Made by a program: the position numbers and the translations under genes
Shown: positions 1 to 9,238 of the stretch, piece after piece
Layout of the letters: each line of letters opens with the position of its first letter
How positions within the stretch are numbered: position 1 is the first letter of the stretch
The notes under the pieces: model-generated
Told to the model about the DNA's origin: nothing
Databases searched by the model: none
Seen by the model: only the letters and a program-made list of their open reading frames with translations
Source of the DNA: an uncultured Clostridia bacterium
GTDB taxonomy: Bacteria > Bacillota > Clostridia > Christensenellales > Borkfalkiaceae
DNA length: 64,000 bases
Assembly (NCBI GenBank): GCA_947631925.1
Contig: CANRNE010000003.1
Coordinates: 1-64,000, forward strand
Reading direction: 5' to 3'

Positions 1-1368
1 CTTCTTTTCAATCGGGTTGATGAGCAGTTCAATATAATTGCGCTCACCGAGCTTGCGGACGAACTTCGCGCTGAATTTGATTTTCCTGTCGCTGAAGGTG
101 ACGGAGGGGCGTTCATAACTATCGAAGAATTCCGACCGTGTGATCTCAAAGCCGCGCAGGTCGAAATCCCCGGCTGCCACTTCGATATGAACGTCCTGTC
201 CTTCGGCACCGGGCGCGGCGGTAGACGTTTCATCGGAAGGGGGAGCGTAAACGCTCTGAGCAGCGGCGAAATAATCGTTTTCCGTGAAGCCAGCCCACCT
301 GGGGTTGATGACAACGAAGCCCTTCAAAATTCCGCTCTCGATGACACGGAGTTCCGGCAGGAAAGACTTGTTTTTGTATTTCGCATTGTCGAGCATTCGC
401 TGAACGGCAATGAAATCGTCTCTTGAAATGATCGCCTCGTGGTGCTTGTGATAGCGGCTCTGTGGACGTTCGCCGCGATTGCGCTTGGATTTGTGGTCGC
501 GGTAGTTCGGCGTGAAGGTTTTCCTTGTCAGAACATCGCCGCAATGCCGCTCGTTTCGCAGAATTTGCAGGATGCCGCTGGATGTCCAATTGACATTTCC
601 GAGGTAAGACTTTCTCCCCAGGGCATTGAACGTGTCTGCTATCTGCTGCGTGGAATAGCCGTATAAATACATATAAAAGGCGAGCTTCACGGTGGGGGCT
701 TCTTCGGGGTTGACCACGAGATTGCCGTCCTCATCGTGCGTGTAGCCGAGCAGTTTCGGGGTGAGGGGGATGCCGTGGTCGAGCCGCATACGAAGCGAGG
801 TCTCCATGCTCCGACTTCTCGTGTGCGATTCTTCCTCTGCCATAGTCGCCTGGAAGGAAAGTGCCATTTGCGAGTCGTCATTGAGGGAGAAGATTGCTTC
901 GGACTCGAAAAACACGCCGACCGGGGACTTGAGTTCGGCGAGATCACGGACGATACCAATGCAGTCGAGGACGTTTCGCGCAAACCTCGACACGCTCTTA
1001 GTGATGATCATATCCGCTTCTCCCGCTTTGCAGGCGGCTATCATTTTATTAAATTCGTCTCGGTGGAGGAGCGATGTGCCGCTGATACCTTCATCGGCGT
1101 AGATGCGGACGAGACGCCAATTCGGGTGGCGAACAACGAACTCCTCGTAATATTTCTTTTGCAGCTCGAAGGAGGTCGTCTGCCGAACATCATTGGTAGA
1201 AACACGGACGTAAATGAACACCCGTTGGGGGACATCGTTATCGTAATAGTCGATGGGTTTTTTCGCCGGGATGAACTCATAGTTATCGGGATCGATTTCA
1301 ACGTGCATCCTTCGGCGGGTTTTTGCTTTCTCAGCTTCCTTTTTTATGCGGCTTTCTTCATCAATCAT
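1..1368 (-). CDS. Large serine recombinase (partial, runs off left edge)
   Basis: Site-specific DNA recombinase of the serine family, probably the integrase/excisionase of the mobile element here. The frame is open from the ATG at 1368 to position 1, 456 codons, so the C-terminus lies outside the window. The catalytic domain is intact: IYVRVST with nucleophile S57, YADEGISG, and ITKSVSRFARN with R128 and R131. A recombinase/DNA-binding region follows (GYSTQQIADTFN, RNERHCGDVL). The start overlaps the stop of the upstream paralogue by 4 bp (ATGA), so the two are translationally coupled. The exact family branch cannot be told without the C-terminus. Confidence 0.93.
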   Translation of the reverse strand, partial: MIDEESRIKKEAEKAKTRRRMHVEIDPDNYEFIPAKKPIDYYDNDVPQRVFIYVRVSTNDVRQTTSFELQKKYYEEFVVRHPNWRLVRIYADEGISGTSLLHRDEFNKMIAACKAGEADMIITKSVSRFARNVLDCIGIVRDLAELKSPVGVFFESEAIFSLNDDSQMALSFQATMAEEESHTRSRSMETSLRMRLDHGIPLTPKLLGYTHDEDGNLVVNPEEAPTVKLAFYMYLYGYSTQQIADTFNALGRKSYLGNVNWTSSGILQILRNERHCGDVLTRKTFTPNYRDHKSKRNRGERPQSRYHKHHEAIISRDDFIAVQRMLDNAKYKNKSFLPELRVIESGILKGFVVINPRWAGFTENDYFAAAQSVYAPPSDETSTAAPGAEGQDVHIEVAAGDFDLRGFEITRSEFFDSYERPSVTFSDRKIKFSAKFVRKLGERNYIELLINPIEKK

Positions 1369-1970
1369 TTGTCGCTTCCTTCACCGGCTTCTTCATCCGG
1401 TAGCAATTTCCAATCGGGACCGGGGAGGAAGAAGGTGTCTCTCAAATCATTCTGATAGTAAGAGGCGAGGGTGAAAATGTCCTCGGATATGAAATAAATC
1501 CCGATGGGTGGGTTCTGGGCGGCAAGCAATCTGGCGCAGATAGTAACTTCCTGTATTTTCTTCGATACATTGGAAACCTTCTGCGTTATAATGAGATTGA
1601 CCTTTCCGTTCATGGCATCTTCAAGCAATCTGCTCCAAGCAGGAGCGGATTCCATGTTGGGCGCAACGGCTCCTTCATCTATATAAAAATCCACGAGTTC
1701 CCAATTGGGGCAGAGGGCAATCGTGTCTATGAATTGTCGTTTGTGGTATGAAAGGTAGTTGTCGTATTTGGTCTGATTGAAGTAACGGATATAAACACCG
1801 ATTTTGAATTTGTTTGCCGGGTTGGGGCATTCGTGCCGAATGGTCTGAAGCCACATCTTGTGCTGGACGATTTTCCGACCGTGTTCCGAGTTGTCCTCCG
1901 AGCTGAACGCAAATTGGGGAGAGCGGGCTATTTCGTTGAACTTGCTGACTATGTCGATTTCGTTTGCCAT
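1365..1970 (-). CDS. Inactive serine-recombinase-like protein
   Basis: 201 residues. Residues about 55-170 align by eye with the catalytic domain of the neighbouring recombinase (VYIRYFN against IYVRVST; PNWELVDFYIDEGAV against PNWRLVRIYADEGIS; LIITQKVSNVSKK against MIITKSVSRFARN). The catalytic serine is replaced (R62-Y-F-N) and both arginines of the SRxxR motif are gone, so it should not cut DNA. No DNA-binding C-terminal domain is present; a short acidic tail ends it. It shares an operon with the active enzyme, with a 4-bp overlap. Inference: a partner, directionality or regulatory subunit. It could also be a decaying copy, but the frame is intact. Confidence 0.8.
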   Translation of the reverse strand: MANEIDIVSKFNEIARSPQFAFSSEDNSEHGRKIVQHKMWLQTIRHECPNPANKFKIGVYIRYFNQTKYDNYLSYHKRQFIDTIALCPNWELVDFYIDEGAVAPNMESAPAWSRLLEDAMNGKVNLIITQKVSNVSKKIQEVTICARLLAAQNPPIGIYFISEDIFTLASYYQNDLRDTFFLPGPDWKLLPDEEAGEGSDK

Positions 1971-2014
1971 GTGCGTCCTCTTTTCGATTATGCGTCAATT
2001 ATAAAATATTGGTC

Positions 2015-2061
2015 AGAAAAAAGGAATAAACCGCTGGTCAGGTTCGTGACTTGCGGTTTAT
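2015..2061 (-). terminator. Hairpin with T-tract before the recombinase pair
   Basis: A nested inverted repeat (arms 2026-2034 and 2053-2061, with inner arms GTCA/TGAC) is followed on the minus strand by a T-rich run at about 2015-2025. It lies between the XRE gene and the recombinase pair, so it should reduce readthrough into the recombinases. An AT-rich TATAAT on the minus strand (1998-2003) lies just downstream and could start the recombinase transcript. Confidence 0.5.
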
Positions 2062-2084
2062 GAAAAGGGGGTATTTTTATGAGA

Positions 2085-2114
2085 TGAAAAGAAAAGAGCG
2101 GAACGAATCCGCTC
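2085..2114 (-). terminator. Terminator of the minus-strand XRE gene
   Basis: The stem GAGCGG/CCGCTC (2096-2101 and 2109-2114, loop of 7) is followed on the minus strand by TTTTCTTTT. It overlaps the stop codon of the XRE gene ending at 2113. Confidence 0.55.
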
Positions 2115-2469
2115 AGAAGTTGTCATCCGGTTTATTGTGTAGCGATTGCTTCACCTCTTGGACGATTTTCAAAATCGACTCGATTTCGGCGGGGGTGCAA
2201 TCTTTGAGAGTGTCCGAAAACTCTTGCTGGTATAGCTGATTGACGGTGGGGATGTTCGGTCGTAAAATGACATCAGCAGAGATGCGGAGGGCTTCGATGA
2301 CCTTTCGGAAGGTCAACACGTTCATCCGCGCTTTGCCGAGTTCAATGTCACTTATATGCGGCACGGAGATTCCGGCGGCGTATGCTAAATCTGCCTGGCT
2401 CATCTCACACGCTATTCTGGCTTCTCGGATTCGCTGCCCGATCAGCTTCAATTCAGTTGCTTCATCCAT
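2113..2469 (-). CDS. XRE-family transcriptional regulator
   Basis: 118 residues with a helix-turn-helix of the XRE/Cro type at about residues 8-65 (IGQRIREAR, MSQADLAYAAGIS, HISDIELGKA). The C-terminal 50 residues are charged and helical. The ATG at 2467-2469 has an AAGGAG ribosome site. It diverges from a second XRE gene across 159 bp and lies upstream of the recombinase pair. It is likely the repressor controlling element genes. No peptidase domain is present, so it is not a LexA/CI-like cleavable repressor. Confidence 0.85.
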   Translation of the reverse strand: MDEATELKLIGQRIREARIACEMSQADLAYAAGISVPHISDIELGKARMNVLTFRKVIEALRISADVILRPNIPTVNQLYQQEFSDTLKDCTPAEIESILKIVQEVKQSLHNKPDDNF

Positions 2470-2565
2470 GTGGAAAACTCCTTATGGAAAATTGAAATTT
2501 TATCGCCTATGGACGATATCTACTTGCAATTTTATCATCTACAGGCTAAAATATAAATAAGCCAC

Positions 2566-2594
2566 GGGCTATGCCATAGCCCATAGGCTATAAT
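2566..2594 (+). promoter_or_regulatory. Candidate operator/promoter between two XRE genes
   Basis: A near-perfect palindrome, GGGCTAT-gcc-ATAGCCC (2566-2582), sits directly upstream of a TATAAT at 2589-2594 that serves the plus-strand XRE gene. No good -35 box is seen, because the palindrome occupies that position. That arrangement suits repressor binding by one of the flanking XRE proteins; binding is inferred. Confidence 0.45.
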
Positions 2595-2628
2595 TAAGTG
2601 AGACTATTTATTGCGGAGGGATACAATA

Positions 2629-2991
2629 GTGGCACTTAATTACATATTGCTTGGCAAACGCATTAAGGATTCCCGGTGCAAACGGAAGTTGTCCCAGGCT
2701 TCGCTTGCGGAAATGATCGACAAATCGCCAACTTACGTCAGCTACCTGGAGAGCGGCATTAAATGCCCAAGCCTTGACACGCTCGTTCAAATAGCGAATG
2801 TTTTACAGGTATCCGCAGACTGTCTTTTGGCAGAAAGTTTGAATAGCCCGCTTGAAGTGGATTCTTCAGAGTTTGATGAGGTTTTCGATGACTGCAATCC
2901 GTATGAGCGGAGAGTCATCATCGAAACCGCGAGGGCTTTGAAGGCGGCAATGAGGGAATATCACTTCCTTTCGAAGCGACAAAAGCCTTAA
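2629..2991 (+). CDS. XRE-family transcriptional regulator
   Basis: 120 residues. The helix-turn-helix domain spans about residues 5-65 (LGKRIKDSR, LSQASLAEMIDKSPTYVSYLESG). The C-terminus resembles the other XRE protein in style (DECNPYERR-type helix before a charged tail). GTG at 2629 is the preferred start because GGAGGG lies 8 bp upstream; a TTG at 2611 would place the ribosome site inside the gene. It is a probable regulator of the cargo operon or of the divergent genes. Confidence 0.83.
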   Translation: MALNYILLGKRIKDSRCKRKLSQASLAEMIDKSPTYVSYLESGIKCPSLDTLVQIANVLQVSADCLLAESLNSPLEVDSSEFDEVFDDCNPYERRVIIETARALKAAMREYHFLSKRQKP

Positions 2992-3017
2992 AAATATTGT
3001 ACTGCAAGGGGCGAGTT

Positions 3018-3064
3018 CAAACAATCGACCGATGGTCAACGGCATCACCATCGGTTTGTTTTGC
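3018..3064 (+). terminator. Rho-independent terminator after XRE gene
   Basis: The stem CCGATGGT (3029-3036)/ACCATCGG (3047-3054) is followed by TTTGTTTTG. It separates the XRE gene from the cargo operon. Confidence 0.7.
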
Positions 3065-3073
3065 TATGATTTT

Positions 3074-3142
3074 TTACATTTTCGCGGATTTCGATTACAT
3101 TTTCAAAGGAGCGCAGAAATGGGTAAAGAAATATGCTATAAT
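3074..3142 (+). promoter_or_regulatory. Cargo-operon promoter with direct-repeat operator
   Basis: An extended -10 box, TGcTATAAT, lies at 3134-3142 without a recognisable -35. Upstream are two exact copies of TTACATTTTC (3074-3083 and 3095-3104), 21 bp apart, i.e. on the same helix face. This looks like an operator or activator site for an element-encoded regulator such as the AbrB-like protein that begins the operon. Confidence 0.5.
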
Positions 3143-3174
3143 CTATCTGACGAAATTTAAGGGAGGATGCCGTA

Positions 3175-3387
3175 ATGGTATGGACGAGAAAAGTATCTGC
3201 AAAGGGCAGCGTGACAATTCCTGCGGAAATCCGTAAGCTCTTAGGTCTTGTCCCCGGCGGCGAGGTCGCTTTTCTCGGTTCGGGACGAGGGAGCGTGGTT
3301 ATGGTCAATGCTGCGGAACTGTCAGAAGCCGCAACACAGGATTTGCAGGCGGGGATGGAAAAACACAAGGAGAATGACGATAAATGA
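3175..3387 (+). CDS. AbrB/MazE/SpoVT-type DNA-binding protein
   Basis: 70 residues forming a single swapped-hairpin AbrB domain (VSAKGSVTIPAEIRKLLGL, PGGEVAFLG). Small proteins of this kind serve as antitoxins or transition-state regulators. GGGAGG lies 6 bp upstream of the ATG. It is the first gene of the cargo operon and overlaps the next gene by 4 bp (ATGA). The next protein does not resemble MazF, PIN or other known toxins, so an antitoxin role is only inferred. Autoregulation at the 3074-3142 site is plausible. Confidence 0.78.
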   Translation: MVWTRKVSAKGSVTIPAEIRKLLGLVPGGEVAFLGSGRGSVVMVNAAELSEAATQDLQAGMEKHKENDDK

Positions 3388-4001
3388 AGCCCGAATATTT
3401 TATTTATGAGCTGGACGACTACTCGTCTCCTACAATCGTTTCATGGACAAAACCATATTTCGGAACGATAGGGGACTTTAAGAGCTTGGTCGATAATCTT
3501 CCTGGGAAAAGCATGGAAGAGTTGAGGAACACCTTTGAACGCTTCGCCGCCGGAGAACGGAGAATTGTGTATCACGCAGGGCAAGCAAAGATCCGTTTCG
3601 CCCACAGAGTATCGCTGCTTGCCGAAAAGCAGTTTGACTTGAAAAAGCTCACGTTTGAATACAAGAACACCTACGGTTTTCCATATAAAATTCGGATGAC
3701 TTCGGCGGTGGGGCGGCTTTGTCTGTTCAAATACGAGAAAGTTTTTTATACGGTGATTTGGGCGAAATTGGAACGGCCGAGATATTGCAATAACCACTTT
3801 GACGGTCGCCGCTGGACGGAACTTGGAGATATGATTTGGGGCTTCCCCGGACAGATAAAGATGGAGGGAAAATTCATGAAGAACGCGCTCGGCGTTATCG
3901 AGAAGAGATTTGATGACGAGGCAGCCGCCAGGGAGCATTTTGCGAGTGTCTCCGAAATCGACTGGCAGAAATTCTATGAGGATGTGTTTGGGGATGGCTG
4001 A
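3384..4001 (+). CDS. Unknown protein, possible partner of AbrB-like protein
   Basis: 205 residues, soluble, no signal peptide or membrane segment. I do not recognise the family. The central part is rich in aromatic and basic residues (KLTFEYKNTYGFPYKIRM, DGRRWTELGDMIWGFPGQ), and the C-terminus is acidic and aromatic. It starts at 3384 inside the stop of the AbrB-like gene and overlaps the next start by 8 bp. The layout resembles an antitoxin-toxin pair, but no toxin motif is visible. Confidence 0.7.
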   Translation: MKPEYFIYELDDYSSPTIVSWTKPYFGTIGDFKSLVDNLPGKSMEELRNTFERFAAGERRIVYHAGQAKIRFAHRVSLLAEKQFDLKKLTFEYKNTYGFPYKIRMTSAVGRLCLFKYEKVFYTVIWAKLERPRYCNNHFDGRRWTELGDMIWGFPGQIKMEGKFMKNALGVIEKRFDDEAAAREHFASVSEIDWQKFYEDVFGDG

Positions 4002-4326
4002 GACAAAAGAGATTATCAAAAAATCGGTAAGTGTTTCGCTCGACAAAAGGATTATTGAGCCTGCAAAGTGCATTTGCAAAAGGCTCGGTATTCCGTTCAA
4101 TGTCGCAATCAACCTCTTTTTGTACCAGCTTGTCTACACAAAGAGCATACCATTCCCGATAGTGCTTCCCTCCGAAGAAGTAATGGAGCAGTTTGACCTC
4201 TATTTGAAAATTTCCGAAGCGATGGAGAGAGGAGAAAAGGATGGGTTGATTCCGGCAGAAGAGGCTTTTGCTCGAATCCGAAAAGAGCTGGAAAACAAGA
4301 TTGAGGAGGACAAAAATGGGGGTTGA
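3994..4326 (+). CDS. RelB/DinJ-like antitoxin-family protein
   Basis: 110 residues. The N-terminal ribbon-helix-helix region (KSVSVSLDKRI, RLGIPFNVAINLFLYQLV, KSIPFPI) matches the RelB/DinJ antitoxin pattern. The C-terminal 50 residues are charged helix (AEEAFARIRKELENKIEE). ATG 3994 overlaps the stop of the upstream gene. The reading frame opens further upstream, but that part overlaps the 205-residue gene out of frame. No RelE/YafQ-type toxin follows; the next gene is unknown. Confidence 0.75.
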   Translation: MAETKEIIKKSVSVSLDKRIIEPAKCICKRLGIPFNVAINLFLYQLVYTKSIPFPIVLPSEEVMEQFDLYLKISEAMERGEKDGLIPAEEAFARIRKELENKIEEDKNGG

Positions 4327-4957
4327 TTACCGTTTTTATGTCGAAGTGAAGGCGGGCGGCAAGTGGTTTAATATAAGCCCAATGATTCGCAACGTGGACG
4401 GCAAGGTTCGGACGGTTCCGCTTTTGACCGGGCGGTCTATGCTTTATGATTTCGTCAATGATTTAGAGGAGTTTGCATCGCAGAGGGGCGTTCCCGAAGA
4501 TGCTTCAGAGGACATCAAAGGCGTTTTCCATCAGCCATTAGATGAGGAAATGTCGGGGTTTGGACATCGCACCTTCCGGCAGTATTACCAATCTCTCGTC
4601 TTTGTGGTCAAGTATGTTCCGGCAATCAGAAGCCGTGTCGTTAAGGACCGCCCGTGCAAGTTTCGGGGTTATGTGAGCAAGCGGCAAATCGCAGGTTTTG
4701 AGGTGAATGAATTCGATGAGATTACCTCTTGGTTGACTCCCCAGGAATACAATGCGCTACCTCCCAACAAGCAGAAATACTATGCCTGGTTTGAGTGGAA
4801 TGAGCCGGACAGCGAATACGGTCATCTGTATGACCTTTATCAGAAGATTGAGAACCAGCTTGTGTGGTTCGTTCGGCATGGTATTCCGTATGGTTCGGAG
4901 ATCGATAGTGAAACGATTTCCTTCAGCGATGTCCGAGTGATTGTTCAACAGGAATGA
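4316..4957 (+). CDS. Unknown protein in cargo operon
   Basis: 213 residues, predicted cytoplasmic, family not recognised. It opens with a beta-rich segment (VDYRFYVEVKAGGKWFNISP) and holds acidic and aromatic stretches near the C-terminus (YYAWFEWNEPDSEYGHLYDL). The start overlaps the RelB/DinJ-like gene by 11 bp, and the stop overlaps the next gene by 4 bp, so it is coupled to both. By position it could be the effector of that antitoxin-family protein, but no catalytic motif supports this. Confidence 0.7.
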   Translation: MGVDYRFYVEVKAGGKWFNISPMIRNVDGKVRTVPLLTGRSMLYDFVNDLEEFASQRGVPEDASEDIKGVFHQPLDEEMSGFGHRTFRQYYQSLVFVVKYVPAIRSRVVKDRPCKFRGYVSKRQIAGFEVNEFDEITSWLTPQEYNALPPNKQKYYAWFEWNEPDSEYGHLYDLYQKIENQLVWFVRHGIPYGSEIDSETISFSDVRVIVQQE

Positions 4958-5229
4958 AAGAGAACACGAAAAAAACTGCCCAAGAGAAGGCAGCTGAAGA
5001 GGGCTATCCCGTGCCATTGAATTTGGACGGTGTCTATTGCCGAGTGGAGCGTAACGGAAGGTGGTTTGACCGCTGCTTTTCCGATCTCACGGAAGAAGAA
5101 CAGGAGAAGTTCCTCGACAGGCTCGACACGGCGGCACAAAGGCGGCTGTGTCGGCTTTTAGCGGCTTGTTTGAGAACTTGCTCGGAAGAAAAAGAGAAGG
5201 GGGACACAGGCGATGTCTCGGCGGTTTAA
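4954..5229 (+). CDS. Small unknown protein
   Basis: 91 residues, charged, cytoplasmic. The middle reads as a compact beta/helix unit (LNLDGVYCRVERNGRWFDRCFSDLT) followed by a helix (EEEQEKFLDRLDTAAQRRLCRLL). Similar short proteins occur in clostridial mobile elements (recollection, not a search). It overlaps both neighbours (4 bp upstream, 17 bp downstream). Confidence 0.65.
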   Translation: MKENTKKTAQEKAAEEGYPVPLNLDGVYCRVERNGRWFDRCFSDLTEEEQEKFLDRLDTAAQRRLCRLLAACLRTCSEEKEKGDTGDVSAV

Positions 5230-5953
5230 TTCGAACCTTTATTTGAACTGCGCTATTCGTTATCAAGACCATGAACTTCGGGCGATTTATCTGCCCAATG
5301 ACTATCTGTGGGCAAGAGGGAGATATCCGACAAAGATTCGACCTTGTGATTTGCCGGATTGGTATGTCTCCGGCTACCTTTTCAAGCGGCAGGGTTATTT
5401 GTCGGCAAAGGGAATCGTGGACATCGTCTATCGACCGGATTATTTCGTTGAGAACCACTCACACAAATACGATTCTCTCTTCGTCTCGTTTCATGACAAA
5501 ATCACCAGAACATTCGATGAGCGCGGGTTTGACCGATTCGATGGGTACGATTACGCAATGTCGGGGTACATCGGCTATCAGCTCATTGAGAAGATGAAGA
5601 TTTATGCCCCGAACATCAATACCGATGAAATCGTTCGGGAACTGTTTCTCAAAGAGAAATGGTATATGATGCGCAAGGACGGCGGTCCGCTCGTAATCAC
5701 CGAGGAAACGCCTGTGCGTGTTTTCCGATCTTGGATGTCAAAGCCGTGGATTTTGGGGCTTGAATTCAATGACAGCAGCTTCGAAAGCATTGATATGAGG
5801 GTGCTTGCCAGGAAGATGCCGAAGGTGGCTGAGCATTTGGACTACTTTCAAGAGAAGCGAATTGCGCAGACTGACCTCTATGGCTATGGGGTGGCTTTCG
5901 ACTGCGGGTTACGTCTGACCGCTGCCGAGTGCTATGAGTTTTGCAAAGGGTGA
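5213..5953 (+). CDS. Unknown protein in cargo operon
   Basis: 246 residues, no signal or membrane segment, rich in Tyr, Phe and Asp (RGFDRFDGYDYAMSGYIGYQ). I do not recognise a domain. It begins within the previous gene and ends 4 bp before the Phd-like gene. With the 205- and 213-residue proteins it makes three unknown proteins of similar size and aromatic content in one operon, each near an antitoxin-family gene. Confidence 0.7.
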   Translation: MSRRFNSNLYLNCAIRYQDHELRAIYLPNDYLWARGRYPTKIRPCDLPDWYVSGYLFKRQGYLSAKGIVDIVYRPDYFVENHSHKYDSLFVSFHDKITRTFDERGFDRFDGYDYAMSGYIGYQLIEKMKIYAPNINTDEIVRELFLKEKWYMMRKDGGPLVITEETPVRVFRSWMSKPWILGLEFNDSSFESIDMRVLARKMPKVAEHLDYFQEKRIAQTDLYGYGVAFDCGLRLTAAECYEFCKG

Positions 5954-5957
5954 TTTC

Positions 5958-6155
5958 ATGAGCCTGGTTGTGACGGAGAAAGAGGTCGCGGAAAAGCTCG
6001 AAGAGTTCCTTCAACTTTCCGCAAAAGAAGATGTTTTTATTACTCGCCGTGGGCGCGTGATTGCGGTTTTGACAAAGCCGGATAAAGGCGGCGCGGAGAT
6101 AATAGCTTCGTTGAAAGATGCGATGCCCAGGGGAGCGAACAATGGGGAAATTTAA
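5958..6155 (+). CDS. Phd/YefM-like antitoxin-family protein
   Basis: 65 residues. The pattern VTEKEVAEKLEEFLQLSAKE followed by DVFITRRGRVIAVLTKP is that of the N-terminal Phd/YefM DNA-binding fold (helix, then strand-turn-strand around TRRGRVIAVL). The C-terminal toxin-binding region is very short. ATG 5958 lies 4 bp after the preceding stop. No Doc, RelE or YoeB toxin is adjacent; the next gene is DpnD/PcfM-like. Confidence 0.7.
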   Translation: MSLVVTEKEVAEKLEEFLQLSAKEDVFITRRGRVIAVLTKPDKGGAEIIASLKDAMPRGANNGEI

Positions 6156-6339
6156 GGTAGCCATTGAGGAAACGGTGGTCGATGAATTTACTGTCGAGGC
6201 AGACAGCGAGAGTGAAGCCTTAGAGATTGCCAGGCAGAAATATAGAAACGGGGAATTCGTCCTGGAACCGGGCGAAGTGCAATACAAACAAATGGCGATT
6301 GTGTCCGGAAAGGAAAATCACGAGTGGCACGAATTCTAA
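6142..6339 (+). CDS. DpnD/PcfM family small protein
   Basis: 65 residues. FKVAIEETVVDEFTVEAD, SEALEIARQKYRNGEFVLEPGEV is the DpnD/PcfM signature, a short alpha/beta protein common on conjugative and integrative elements (established occurrence; function not known). ATG 6142 overlaps the Phd-like stop by 14 bp. Confidence 0.78.
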   Translation: MGKFKVAIEETVVDEFTVEADSESEALEIARQKYRNGEFVLEPGEVQYKQMAIVSGKENHEWHEF

Positions 6340-6352
6340 AAGGCAGGAAAGC

Positions 6353-7156
6353 ATGAAATATTATGTGGTTTCGGACGTCCACGGGTTCTACACGCCGCTG
6401 GTGTCCGCCTTAAAAGAAAAGGGATTTTTCGATGACAAGGAACCGCACAAGCTCATTGTTTGCGGCGACCTTTTTGACCGTGGAGAGGAAGCCGAGAAAA
6501 TCCAAGAGTTCATTTGCGATTTGCTTGAAAAAGACCTCGTGATTCTGATTCGCGGAAACCACGAGGACTTGGTAGAAGAGTTGGTTGAGAACTTCGGCGA
6601 GTGGATGACGATCGACCTCATCTATTCGCATCATTGGCACAATCAAACGCCGCAGACCGTGTTCCAGCTCACGCACAGCGATTTATATGAAGCAACGACC
6701 ATGCCGAAGAGGGTTTCTCTCAGAATGAAGGAAACGCCGTTCTTCAAGAAGATTCTCCCGGCGATGGTGGACTATTACGAGACGGAAAAATATATCTTCG
6801 TGCATGGCTGGATTCCCGCTGATGGCATCGGCGGCAGCCGCCCGCAGTATTTCTATCCGATTGAAAATTGGCGCGGGAGCGATGCCACCCGGTGGAGGGA
6901 GGCGCGGTGGTTCAATGGGATGCTTGCCGCATCGTGTGGCGTAACGGAGCCGGGGAAAACAATCGTCTGCGGGCATTGGCACACCTCCTACGGACACTCT
7001 ATCCTGGAAGGCAAATGCTCGGAGTTCGGAGATGATGCCGAATTCACGCCGTATTACGGAGAAGGCATTATTGCGATTGACGCTTGCACGGCTCACTCCG
7101 GGTTCGTCAACTGCATTGTTTTGGAAGATGAGGAATTGCAGAAAAATGGCGACTGA
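6353..7156 (+). CDS. PPP-type metallophosphoesterase
   Basis: 267 residues. Metal-binding motifs are complete: SDVHG (D8, H10), GDLFDRG (D39, D42), RGNHED (N69, H70), FVHGW and CGHWHT. This is the arrangement of phage and bacterial PPP phosphatases related to lambda phosphatase and ApaH, acting on phosphoproteins or dinucleotide polyphosphates. Substrate unknown. AGGCAGGAAAG precedes ATG 6353. It is the only clear enzyme among the cargo genes and overlaps the next gene by 11 bp. Confidence 0.88.
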   Translation: MKYYVVSDVHGFYTPLVSALKEKGFFDDKEPHKLIVCGDLFDRGEEAEKIQEFICDLLEKDLVILIRGNHEDLVEELVENFGEWMTIDLIYSHHWHNQTPQTVFQLTHSDLYEATTMPKRVSLRMKETPFFKKILPAMVDYYETEKYIFVHGWIPADGIGGSRPQYFYPIENWRGSDATRWREARWFNGMLAASCGVTEPGKTIVCGHWHTSYGHSILEGKCSEFGDDAEFTPYYGEGIIAIDACTAHSGFVNCIVLEDEELQKNGD

Positions 7157-7475
7157 AAGACAAACCGAGATTGACGCTCCGTCCCTGGAAGAAATCCTTC
7201 AAAAGCATTTCGGCTTGAAAGGGAACTTGTATTTGAAGCGACCAGTCGTGTCGGGTTGGGTTGGCGGCAATAAAGAGAGGGGAGACTTCGATGCTCCGTC
7301 CCCGGAATATCGGTATTTCACCCTGGCGGGCTTTCGGGCTTACGAGCGATTTATTTCCGCACTGTACGACCTGGCGAACCATGTCGAGACATTCATCGAT
7401 ACCGATCTTGGGAAGCGCATCAGCCACCTTGATGACACCTTCGATGAATATGAGCATGAACCGTGGAATTCTTAA
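7146..7475 (+). CDS. Unknown small protein
   Basis: 109 residues, acidic, no known domain. Its C-terminal half looks helical (FRAYERFISALYDLANHVETF, ISHLDDTFDEYEHE). It starts 11 bp before the phosphatase stop, so it is translationally coupled to it and may act with it. Confidence 0.62.
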   Translation: MATERQTEIDAPSLEEILQKHFGLKGNLYLKRPVVSGWVGGNKERGDFDAPSPEYRYFTLAGFRAYERFISALYDLANHVETFIDTDLGKRISHLDDTFDEYEHEPWNS

Positions 7476-7514
7476 AAAGGAAAGCAAAGACTGGCGTAGG
7501 GGTTGAGTGAAAAG

Positions 7515-7697
7515 ATGAGAAAGAAAAAACCGAAATTGAATTACAAATTCCATCATCCGAATCCGGAGCAGTTGATTGGGACGATTTTGCAGGTTTGCAT
7601 CGAAGCGAATATCCCTCGTGTCGATAAACTCCTGGCGCAAGAGCCGATGGAAAGCCAGGAAAAAGATGAGGAGAAAAATGAGGGAAAAACAGTTTGA
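7515..7697 (+). CDS. Small unknown mobile-element protein
   Basis: 60 residues, very basic N-terminus (MRKKKPKLNYKFHHPNPEQ) and acidic lysine-rich end. The YKFHHPNP...ANIPRVDKLL pattern recalls short proteins of Firmicutes integrative elements (memory, not a search). ATG 7515 is preferred over the in-frame TTG 7503. It is the last gene of the operon, directly before the periodic repeats. Confidence 0.55.
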   Translation: MRKKKPKLNYKFHHPNPEQLIGTILQVCIEANIPRVDKLLAQEPMESQEKDEEKNEGKTV

Positions 7698-7731
7698 CTT
7701 TCCAATCTCCTCGTGATACAATAAAAGAGCG

Positions 7732-7799
7732 TTTGAACGCCCGGCGGTGCATTTGAACGGTCAGAGGGCAATTTGAACGGTCAAGTGACGTTTTGAACG
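7732..7799. repeat. Four TTTGAACG repeats at exact 20-bp period
   Basis: TTTGAACG occurs at 7732, 7752, 7772 and 7792, and three of the four copies are TTTGAACGG. The spacers differ in sequence, so this is an array of short sites rather than a duplicated unit. A weaker TTTGACT lies at 7693. The array lies between the last cargo gene and the palindrome, at the apparent right border of the element. Possible roles are protein-binding iterons, recombination accessory sites or an operator array. Confidence 0.75.
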
Positions 7800-7835
7800 G
7801 GCGGTTGAAATGGTATCAAAATCAGATACCTTTCA

Positions 7836-7876
7836 CATGAGAAAAGAGAATGCCCACGGCATTCTCTTTTCTCATG
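7836..7876. terminator. 19-bp perfect palindrome between convergent operons
   Basis: Arms 7836-7854 and 7858-7876 pair perfectly around a 3-base loop (CAC). A second small hairpin, GGTATC/GATACC (7812-7830), precedes it. The palindrome separates the plus-strand cargo operon from the minus-strand ABC operon ending at 7892 and can stop transcripts from both sides, although T-runs are modest. Confidence 0.65.
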
Positions 7877-7891
7877 GAAATAATTTTGTTT

Positions 7892-9238
7892 TCAATCCAC
7901 TTCCGTATGCAGAATTTCTTTAATGGGCTTGCGCCGCAGTCGGATGAGGGACACGAGGAAGAACATGGCGGCGATTGCAAAGACGATGGCAACGGCAACG
8001 ATGAGAATGGTCGCGATTTCCCCCGCGGAGACGGTCAGCGAGATGGCGACGACCCACTTGAGCAGGGCGGACAGGACGGTGTAGCCGAGCAGCGTCAGAA
8101 TGGCCGCGATGGGGATGGCGGCGAGGCACAAAAGGAGCAATTGTATCGCGAGCAGGGCAAACATCTGGCTGCGTTTCAATCCGAATGTCATGAGAATTCC
8201 GCCCGAGCGGGAGAACACCTTGATGTACTTATCTATCATCAGAAATACGGTCAGAATGAGCCCGATGGCGAGCGTTGTTCCGACGACGGCATAGAGATTG
8301 GCCGCGAGGATTTGCACCTTCGACGTATTACTGATATGCGCCGCCATCTCCTTGCCGACATATTTCGTACTGGAGTCGGTGTATTGCCATGAGAGGACGT
8401 CTTCCAGTTCGGGCCAATCGGCGAGATAGCGGCGATAGCGATGATAGTAAGAGGACTTGAAGAAGTCGCTCCCGTAGGGGAAGAGGAAGGTGGGACGGCA
8501 TACCATTTCCGCGCTGTGTCCCTTCAACGAGGTCAGTTCGCGGCGATAGATGCCGCAGACTTTCATCGTGAACTGCTCGACGAATTCACCCTCCGTCTTC
8601 TTGCGGAATTTCACCGTCATAGTCTTGTCGAGCACGTCCTCGGGCTCCATCTTATAGGCGTCGAGGAGAAGTTCGCTCACCGCAATCTCGTCGAGCGCCT
8701 CGGGGTAGTGCCCCGCGGAGAAGAAGCTGTCATAGCCGTAGCGAGCCTTGAGCTCCCGATAGTCGAACTCGGTGAAGTATCCCGTCTCGCACGCAATCGT
8801 CGCGAACGTGACATTTTTCAGCGGGATATATTCCTTCCCGTCCACGTCGATAAAGAAGTAGGTGCTGTTCGCGTTATACTGCCCGCCGACGGCGTATTCC
8901 GCGCTCACGGTGGGGGCGTAGTTGTGAAGAAGATAGTGGTCCTCATAGACAAAATCGCTGTAGTACGTGTGAACGATTTCATCCTGTGAGGGAGACTGAA
9001 AGATGATGTAGTTGGAGGAGGCAATCTCGTCATACTTGTTGTCGCGATATTCCTCGATGGCCACGTTATAGACCGTAAAGAGGCAAAAGAGGAAGGCGAG
9101 CGCGGCAAAGGTGAGACAAAGTTTTGTGTTCATCCAGAGGTACGTCTTGATTTGCTTGCAGGCGAGGCGAAACAGGCTGAATCCCTTTTTGACTTCCTGC
9201 ACATTCTCCTGAAGGGCTTCTGCTTTGTTGTTATTCAT
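7892..9238 (-). CDS. ABC transporter permease, FtsX-like
   Basis: 448 residues. One N-terminal membrane segment (about residues 37-57, CLTFAALAFLFCLFTVYNVA), an extracytoplasmic domain of about 250 residues rich in Tyr and acidic residues, then three C-terminal membrane segments (LAIGLILTVFLMI; ALLAIQLLLLCLAAIPIAAIL; TILIVAVAIVFAIAAMFFLV). This is the FtsX/MacB permease layout. ATG at 9236-9238 has a GGAGG site and overlaps the preceding gene by 8 bp; the open frame upstream of it is not the gene. It acts with the second permease and the ATPase upstream. Confidence 0.85.
   Translation of the reverse strand: MNNNKAEALQENVQEVKKGFSLFRLACKQIKTYLWMNTKLCLTFAALAFLFCLFTVYNVAIEEYRDNKYDEIASSNYIIFQSPSQDEIVHTYYSDFVYEDHYLLHNYAPTVSAEYAVGGQYNANSTYFFIDVDGKEYIPLKNVTFATIACETGYFTEFDYRELKARYGYDSFFSAGHYPEALDEIAVSELLLDAYKMEPEDVLDKTMTVKFRKKTEGEFVEQFTMKVCGIYRRELTSLKGHSAEMVCRPTFLFPYGSDFFKSSYYHRYRRYLADWPELEDVLSWQYTDSSTKYVGKEMAAHISNTSKVQILAANLYAVVGTTLAIGLILTVFLMIDKYIKVFSRSGGILMTFGLKRSQMFALLAIQLLLLCLAAIPIAAILTLLGYTVLSALLKWVVAISLTVSAGEIATILIVAVAIVFAIAAMFFLVSLIRLRRKPIKEILHTEVD

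Follow-up and report, generated by a model that had tools for sequence, protein, structure and literature searches.

A conserved catalytic-domain-only serine recombinase without an active site, encoded beside a large serine recombinase

Why would a mobile element keep, directly in front of the gene for a large serine recombinase (LSR), a second gene whose product has the fold of a recombinase catalytic domain without its active site? The question is raised by the first genes of the window analyzed here, a stretch of 64,000 nucleotides whose base 1 is base 1 of a contig of 111,673 bases (G000:C3) in a 1.9-Mb assembly. The short upstream protein, which we call DEAD, could be a decaying duplicate or a retained partner of the LSR (Table 1).

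Table 1. Features of the window and of related loci (locus handles precede the positions where these lie outside the window)
Feature	Position	Strand	Basis or remark
DEAD, catalytic-domain-only serine recombinase without active site, 201 aa	1365..1970	-	Pfam, predicted structure, alignment
LSR, first 456 codons, catalytic residues intact	1..1368	-	Pfam, alignment
Overlapping stop and start codons (ATGA) of DEAD and LSR, 4 bp	1365..1368	-	Sequence
HTH (Cro/CI-type) regulator upstream of DEAD	2113..2469	-	Pfam; same order in relatives
Divergent HTH regulator, first cargo-side gene	2611..2991	+	Pfam; same place in relatives
Element cargo genes	3175..7697	+	ORFs, profiles
MazE-like cargo gene	3175-3387	+
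RelB-like cargo gene	3994-4326	+
NinI-like metallophosphoesterase, cargo	6353-7156	+
Four TTTGAACG direct repeats, adjoining element end	7731..7800	+
Host hairpin, 17-bp stem, abutting element end	7838..7874	none	Junction 7837/7838
CTD1 and CTD2, two genes after LSR	L070:7520-8672		Same place in relatives
ParB-like 1 and ParB-like 2 (DUF6551), closing operon	L070:8665-10559		Same place in relatives
L321/L238 partner, 180 aa	L321:3998-4537
L350/L355 partner, 142 aa	L350:2149-2574
L008/L009/L360/L365 partner, ~165 aa	L360:5448-5957
L212 partner, 157 aa, in frame with LSR, one stop between	L212:9682-10152	-

Predicted fold and active site of DEAD

The DEAD open reading frame runs from an ATG start to a TGA stop, and the LSR starts at position 1368 on the same strand. 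The initial annotation had described an intact gene overlapping an active recombinase by 4 bp. Intactness and overlap hold; the neighbor has intact catalytic residues, but it is truncated by the contig start, with 456 codons present against ~630 in relatives and its C-terminal end absent.

By Pfam, DEAD matches the Resolvase family (PF00239) alone, at 23.2 bits, marginally below the cut-off of 23.3 (E = 8e-5), with neither a Recombinase domain (PF07508) nor a DNA-binding domain; the neighboring LSR matches both PF00239 (88 bits) and PF07508 (78 bits). The predicted structure of DEAD (mean pLDDT 81.8) aligns with the serine-recombinase catalytic domain 3g13 (Z = 15.9, rmsd 2.4 over 111 residues) and with TP901-1 integrase (Z = 13.4), and its profile matches the LSR catalytic domain (E = 2e-23). 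These results agree with the fold and the missing DNA-binding domain proposed at the outset, and DEAD is a stand-alone copy of the LSR catalytic domain. Structural similarity to 1gdt extends as far as 1gdt residue 102. Alignment of the DEAD profile with the LSR breaks off at the same place, where the long dimerization helix (alpha-E) starts. By alignment and structural model, DEAD has neither this helix nor a DNA-binding part.

In the window's DEAD, with catalytic residues numbered after gamma-delta resolvase, S10 is gone, R68 is replaced by N and R71 by K, and the loop YIRYFNQT stands where the catalytic serine region would be. The serine and both active-site arginines had initially been listed as lost. 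That is correct for S10, R68 and R71, but R8, another active-site arginine, is retained together with Tyr6, as it is in all 56 distinct DEAD proteins collected below, truncated ones included.

Conservation and history of DEAD

Using a seed alignment obtained with two relatives from the same bacterial family, we scanned one genome per species across 84,980 species, which gave 36 loci, and virus contigs, which gave 28. An intact DEAD gene is followed directly by an active LSR in 58 of these 64 loci, so the two-gene arrangement does recur in other genomes. Four of the remaining six are cut by contig ends (L058, L065 and L067, and L063, whose contig stops 82 bases past DEAD). The other two are deletion remnants with a truncated DEAD and the LSR gone (L061, 4902-5971; L069, 4941-5231); the former looks like a deletion from DEAD into ParB-like 2, the last gene of the operon. 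Counted from the first base of the LSR gene through the last base of the stop codon of DEAD, the overlap is 4 or 8 nt in 53/64 loci (8 nt in 48, 4 nt in 5); where there were several in-frame starts the one nearest -6 was taken, with ATG preferred, and the exact offsets depend on this rule. The likeness among members exceeds chance: a search of 396 genomes from the order found a family member in three of them (325–345 bits), each beside its LSR, and the best non-members, at most 91 bits, are full LSRs.

The loss of catalytic residues is shared by the family. None of the 56 distinct DEAD proteins has S10; R68 is N in 52, S in one, G in one and a gap in two, and is never retained; R71 has become K in 37 and is kept in 10, with another residue in seven and a gap in two. 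YIRYFN is invariant across 37 aligned members, with the following QT nearly so, and later loci added two cases of YIRFFN and one of YIRYYN. The partner LSRs have a full catalytic site in all 50 distinct sequences.

We compared substitution rates by a counting method written for this analysis, over 29 pairs that are not independent because many share sequences. DEAD has a median dN/dS of 0.146 and the LSR one of 0.025, so that DEAD evolves faster than its neighbor; in ten pairs with dS > 0.4 the DEAD value is 0.03–0.07, and the closest pairs reach 0.31 from 4–9 changes. DEAD is under purifying selection. Distances among DEAD genes track those among their LSRs (r = 0.85 over 46 gene pairs, 0/2000 permutations), as expected for co-inherited genes.

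The 64 loci are uninformative on the loss of DEAD because DEAD itself was the query, and two further scans did not use it. With the LSR as query, among the 80 matches listed, near-identical records included, DEAD is present in 38 and absent from 37 with at least 700 nt upstream, and five are too short. With ParB-like 2 as query, the 80 matches listed, again with near-identical records among them, comprise 28 with DEAD, 29 without, 10 that are too short and 13 without an LSR. The LSR tree comprises 105 different sequences (one of the 106 collected was too short; LG+G4, short search) and includes rows from the DEAD scans. The 54 DEAD carriers form a single clade (SH-aLRT 99), 46 non-carriers lie outside it and presence is undecided in five; on this tree there is no loss of DEAD inside the carrier clade. 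DEAD was gained once in this clade and retained afterwards, and the absence or breakage in most relatives that simple decay would predict is not encountered within it. Because sister clades carry the module described below without DEAD, DEAD is dispensable for the module as such.

A survey of 136 upstream ORFs beside 263 LSRs, in which LSR fragments, HTH genes and zinc-finger genes were set aside on reading, revealed four further sets of short catalytic domains without an active site directly upstream of other, active LSRs (Table 1). Three other candidates (L011, L026 and L027) are split or full recombinases with active-site motifs. In a catalytic-domain tree of 76 rows and 131 columns, whose bootstrap had not settled, the L350/L355 partners fall beside the LSRs that they precede (99/86), as does the L212 partner (99/98). 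These positions point to separate origins and rule out a single origin for all dead partners. The partners of L008/L009/L360/L365 and of L321 are placed only tentatively with the DEAD family, on long branches. Virus-contig scans with two minor partner sets found one and two loci, and most matches of a genome search with the first of the minor sets were ordinary LSRs, with one DEAD among them.

Module, carriers and insertion site

Neighbor clustering and profiles give a fixed gene order in the DEAD clade: divergent HTH, HTH, DEAD, LSR, CTD1, CTD2, ParB-like 1 and ParB-like 2 (PF20188, DUF6551). Where a locus extends far enough, the operon nearly always closes with both ParB-like genes. CTD1 (~256 aa) and CTD2 (~124 aa) belong to no Pfam or PHROG family and match the LSR C-terminal region (E = 3e-32 and 3e-12, respectively); they are stand-alone copies of that region of their own LSR. 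The cassette has four recombinase-derived proteins, two more than the initial annotation described. CTD2 was undetected in L055, L056 and L060. Fold searches with CTD1 gave unusable best matches, a sliding clamp by Foldseek (TM ~0.1) and MraZ by VIA-align (Z = 3.9). Two further, convergent LSRs often follow ParB-like 2 on the opposite strand (L183, L188, L195 and others), and elements with this pair carry up to three LSRs.

The window itself contains the first four parts of the module only, the two HTH genes, DEAD and the LSR. A search of its genome assembly found no ParB-like 2, and the CTD1 gene is absent from the assembly, where the sole CTD1 match is the C-terminal end of the LSR itself. 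We infer that the assembly is a metagenome bin, and the missing genes are as expected if the rest of the mobile element was dropped from it. Phosphoesterases recur in the cargo of relatives, and the window carries a NinI-like one, to which the single weak PADLOC match on the window element also falls. No Rfam family was found in positions 1-8200 of the window.

Some carriers are phages. Of 22 virus records searched, six encode a terminase with 76–88% identity to the one in a Ca. Heliusvirales phage, and five of the seven DEAD-bearing virus contigs of at least 30 kb encode one 83–88% identical to it. Named records of Ca. Heliusvirales/Heliusviridae gut phages contain the LSR-CTD1-CTD2-ParB-like module, annotated as hypothetical (PV036458), whereas no member of the DEAD family was found in the annotated phage collection; the main text of a paper on Heliusviridae gut phages does not mention a recombinase, integrase or resolvase (PMC9226167). 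A search of 26 genomes, of which 23 carry DEAD, found a terminase with more than 60% identity in only two (G667 and G729), and in G667 it lies on a different contig from the module. Because the terminase is rare among carrier genomes, and off the module contig in G667, some carriers, for example the near-identical Flavonifractor-type elements, may be non-phage islands. The assembly that contains the window gave no match to the terminase, and the window's contig ends within the LSR. The near-identical elements (L049-L054, L059, L088) occur at differing sites in genomes named Flavonifractor, Angelakisella, Dysosmobacter and others, with ~95–98% DNA identity over the aligned regions of three checked pairs; near-identical elements at different sites reflect recent transfer.

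We located the cargo-side end of the window element by comparison with relatives; the opposite end, beyond the LSR, was not found. Similarity stops at 7837 for G165 (99%, 111 bp) and G260 (84%, 67 bp) and at 7818 for G269 (91%, 319 bp), and the sequences diverge beyond these points. On the host side of the window, a 17-bp hairpin begins at the first base after the junction. Across eight junctions, including the left ends of four Flavonifractor-type elements, a stem of at least 12 bp, with one mismatch allowed, lies at most 2 nt from the junction in six, against a background of at most 0.15% of 45-nt windows in the same host DNA. The two junctions without a standout stem have 6 bp (ANG) and 8 bp (G269) by the same measure, and a folding-energy test of the junction hairpins was weaker than the stem test. 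From their position after genes and nearby T runs, we read the hairpins as putative intrinsic terminators, and the junctions suggest that terminators are insertion targets of the window's and related elements (L157-L164 and L394-L396). Multi-targeting LSRs have been described in a paper whose main text does not contain the word 'terminator' (PMC10083194). The four TTTGAACG repeats just inside the element end, ~20 bp apart, are also present in G269 and G165 and are possible binding sites.

Possible roles of DEAD

A recombinase fold with Tyr6 and R8 kept, a non-catalytic loop, and no dimerization helix or DNA-binding part make DEAD a likely LSR-binding cap or bridge. Our main reading, to which we assign a probability of about 0.6, is that DEAD is a selected pseudo-recombinase subunit of a multi-protein integration module found in Ca. 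Heliusvirales-like phages and in related islands of Clostridia. Given the gene overlap, DEAD and the LSR would probably be made in step. Docked as a cap or bridge on the catalytic domains of the LSR encoded beside it, DEAD would gate synapsis or decide between integration and excision, with CTD1 and CTD2 acting at the opposite end of the LSR. A cap or bridge is likelier than a place in the rotating tetramer because DEAD has no DNA-binding part and its match ends before the dimerization helix.

A recombination directionality factor (RDF) stimulates attL × attR recombination by its LSR and inhibits attP × attB recombination. The RDFs described so far contact their LSRs at the zinc-domain or coiled-coil region, and none is known to derive from a recombinase; LSR–RDF complex structures are listed in the PDB. 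The phiC31, Bxb1 and TP901-1 systems share with ours an LSR with catalytic and Recombinase domains and a separate small protein, whereas in our module the recombinase catalytic fold recurs in the small protein, and the C-terminal region of the LSR, without a Pfam zinc ribbon, is duplicated as separate genes. DEAD could still be an RDF made from a recombinase that switches the LSR to excision, as it adjoins the LSR, lacks catalysis and a DNA-binding part, and is accompanied by no other RDF identified in the module by neighbor clustering or profiles. We consider this role unlikely: modules without DEAD must excise by other means, Pfam finds in the LSR no zinc domain of the kind that RDFs bind, and the place of DEAD behind an HTH gene suggests co-expression with the LSR, a poor fit for an excision-only factor.

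We give similarly low odds to DEAD being an inhibitor that sits on the LSR catalytic domain and silences the enzyme while the element is integrated. The missing dimerization helix would let DEAD cap rather than extend the tetramer, and a single operon would supply both proteins in step, but an inhibitor made alongside its enzyme must be overcome for integration. A mixed synapse, suggested in the initial annotation beside control of directionality and in which DEAD replaces at least one LSR subunit in the tetramer, is more doubtful still: DEAD shares the LSR fold and, among non-members, is most similar to its own kind of LSR, but the dimerization helix and all DNA-binding parts are missing from it. 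That DEAD is a decaying pseudogene of a duplicated recombinase, as the truncated genes at L061 and L069 without an LSR might suggest, is highly improbable and, for the family, refuted by the intact loci with their LSRs, the purifying selection seen in dN/dS, the near-invariant new loop and the LSR tree without in-clade loss.

CcrA and CcrB of SCC elements are two adjacent serine recombinases that act together. The best NCBIfam matches here, all far below cut-off, are CcrB for the LSR and CcrC and CcrB for DEAD; two neighboring serine recombinases are common to both systems, whereas CcrA and CcrB are full-length and catalytically complete and DEAD has neither an active site nor a Recombinase domain. 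Streptococcal ICEs can carry serine integrase triplets in one module, attributed to duplication; as described there, each of these integrases contains PF00239, with its serine conserved, and PF07508 is always present, whereas DEAD has neither the serine nor PF07508 (PMC4701971). Our search of open-access papers turned up no account of a conserved, dead partner of a serine recombinase.

More broadly, and tentatively, LSR lineages may repeatedly recruit a dead, catalytic-domain-only recombinase copy as a subunit, here within a machine that combines a full LSR with stand-alone versions of its catalytic and C-terminal halves and with two ParB-like proteins; the elements that carry it would insert at the base of intrinsic terminators. 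We consider this generalization somewhat less likely than not. What makes a serine integrase integrate rather than excise has been asked for a long time and has practical weight for genome engineering, and a natural, genetically linked pseudo-enzyme partner of multiple origin would give a new handle on synapsis and direction. With the catalytic-domain and C-terminal-domain proteins encoded separately, the roles of both halves of the enzyme become separately testable, and relatives of the module reside in gut phages whose lysogeny genes bear hypothetical annotation.
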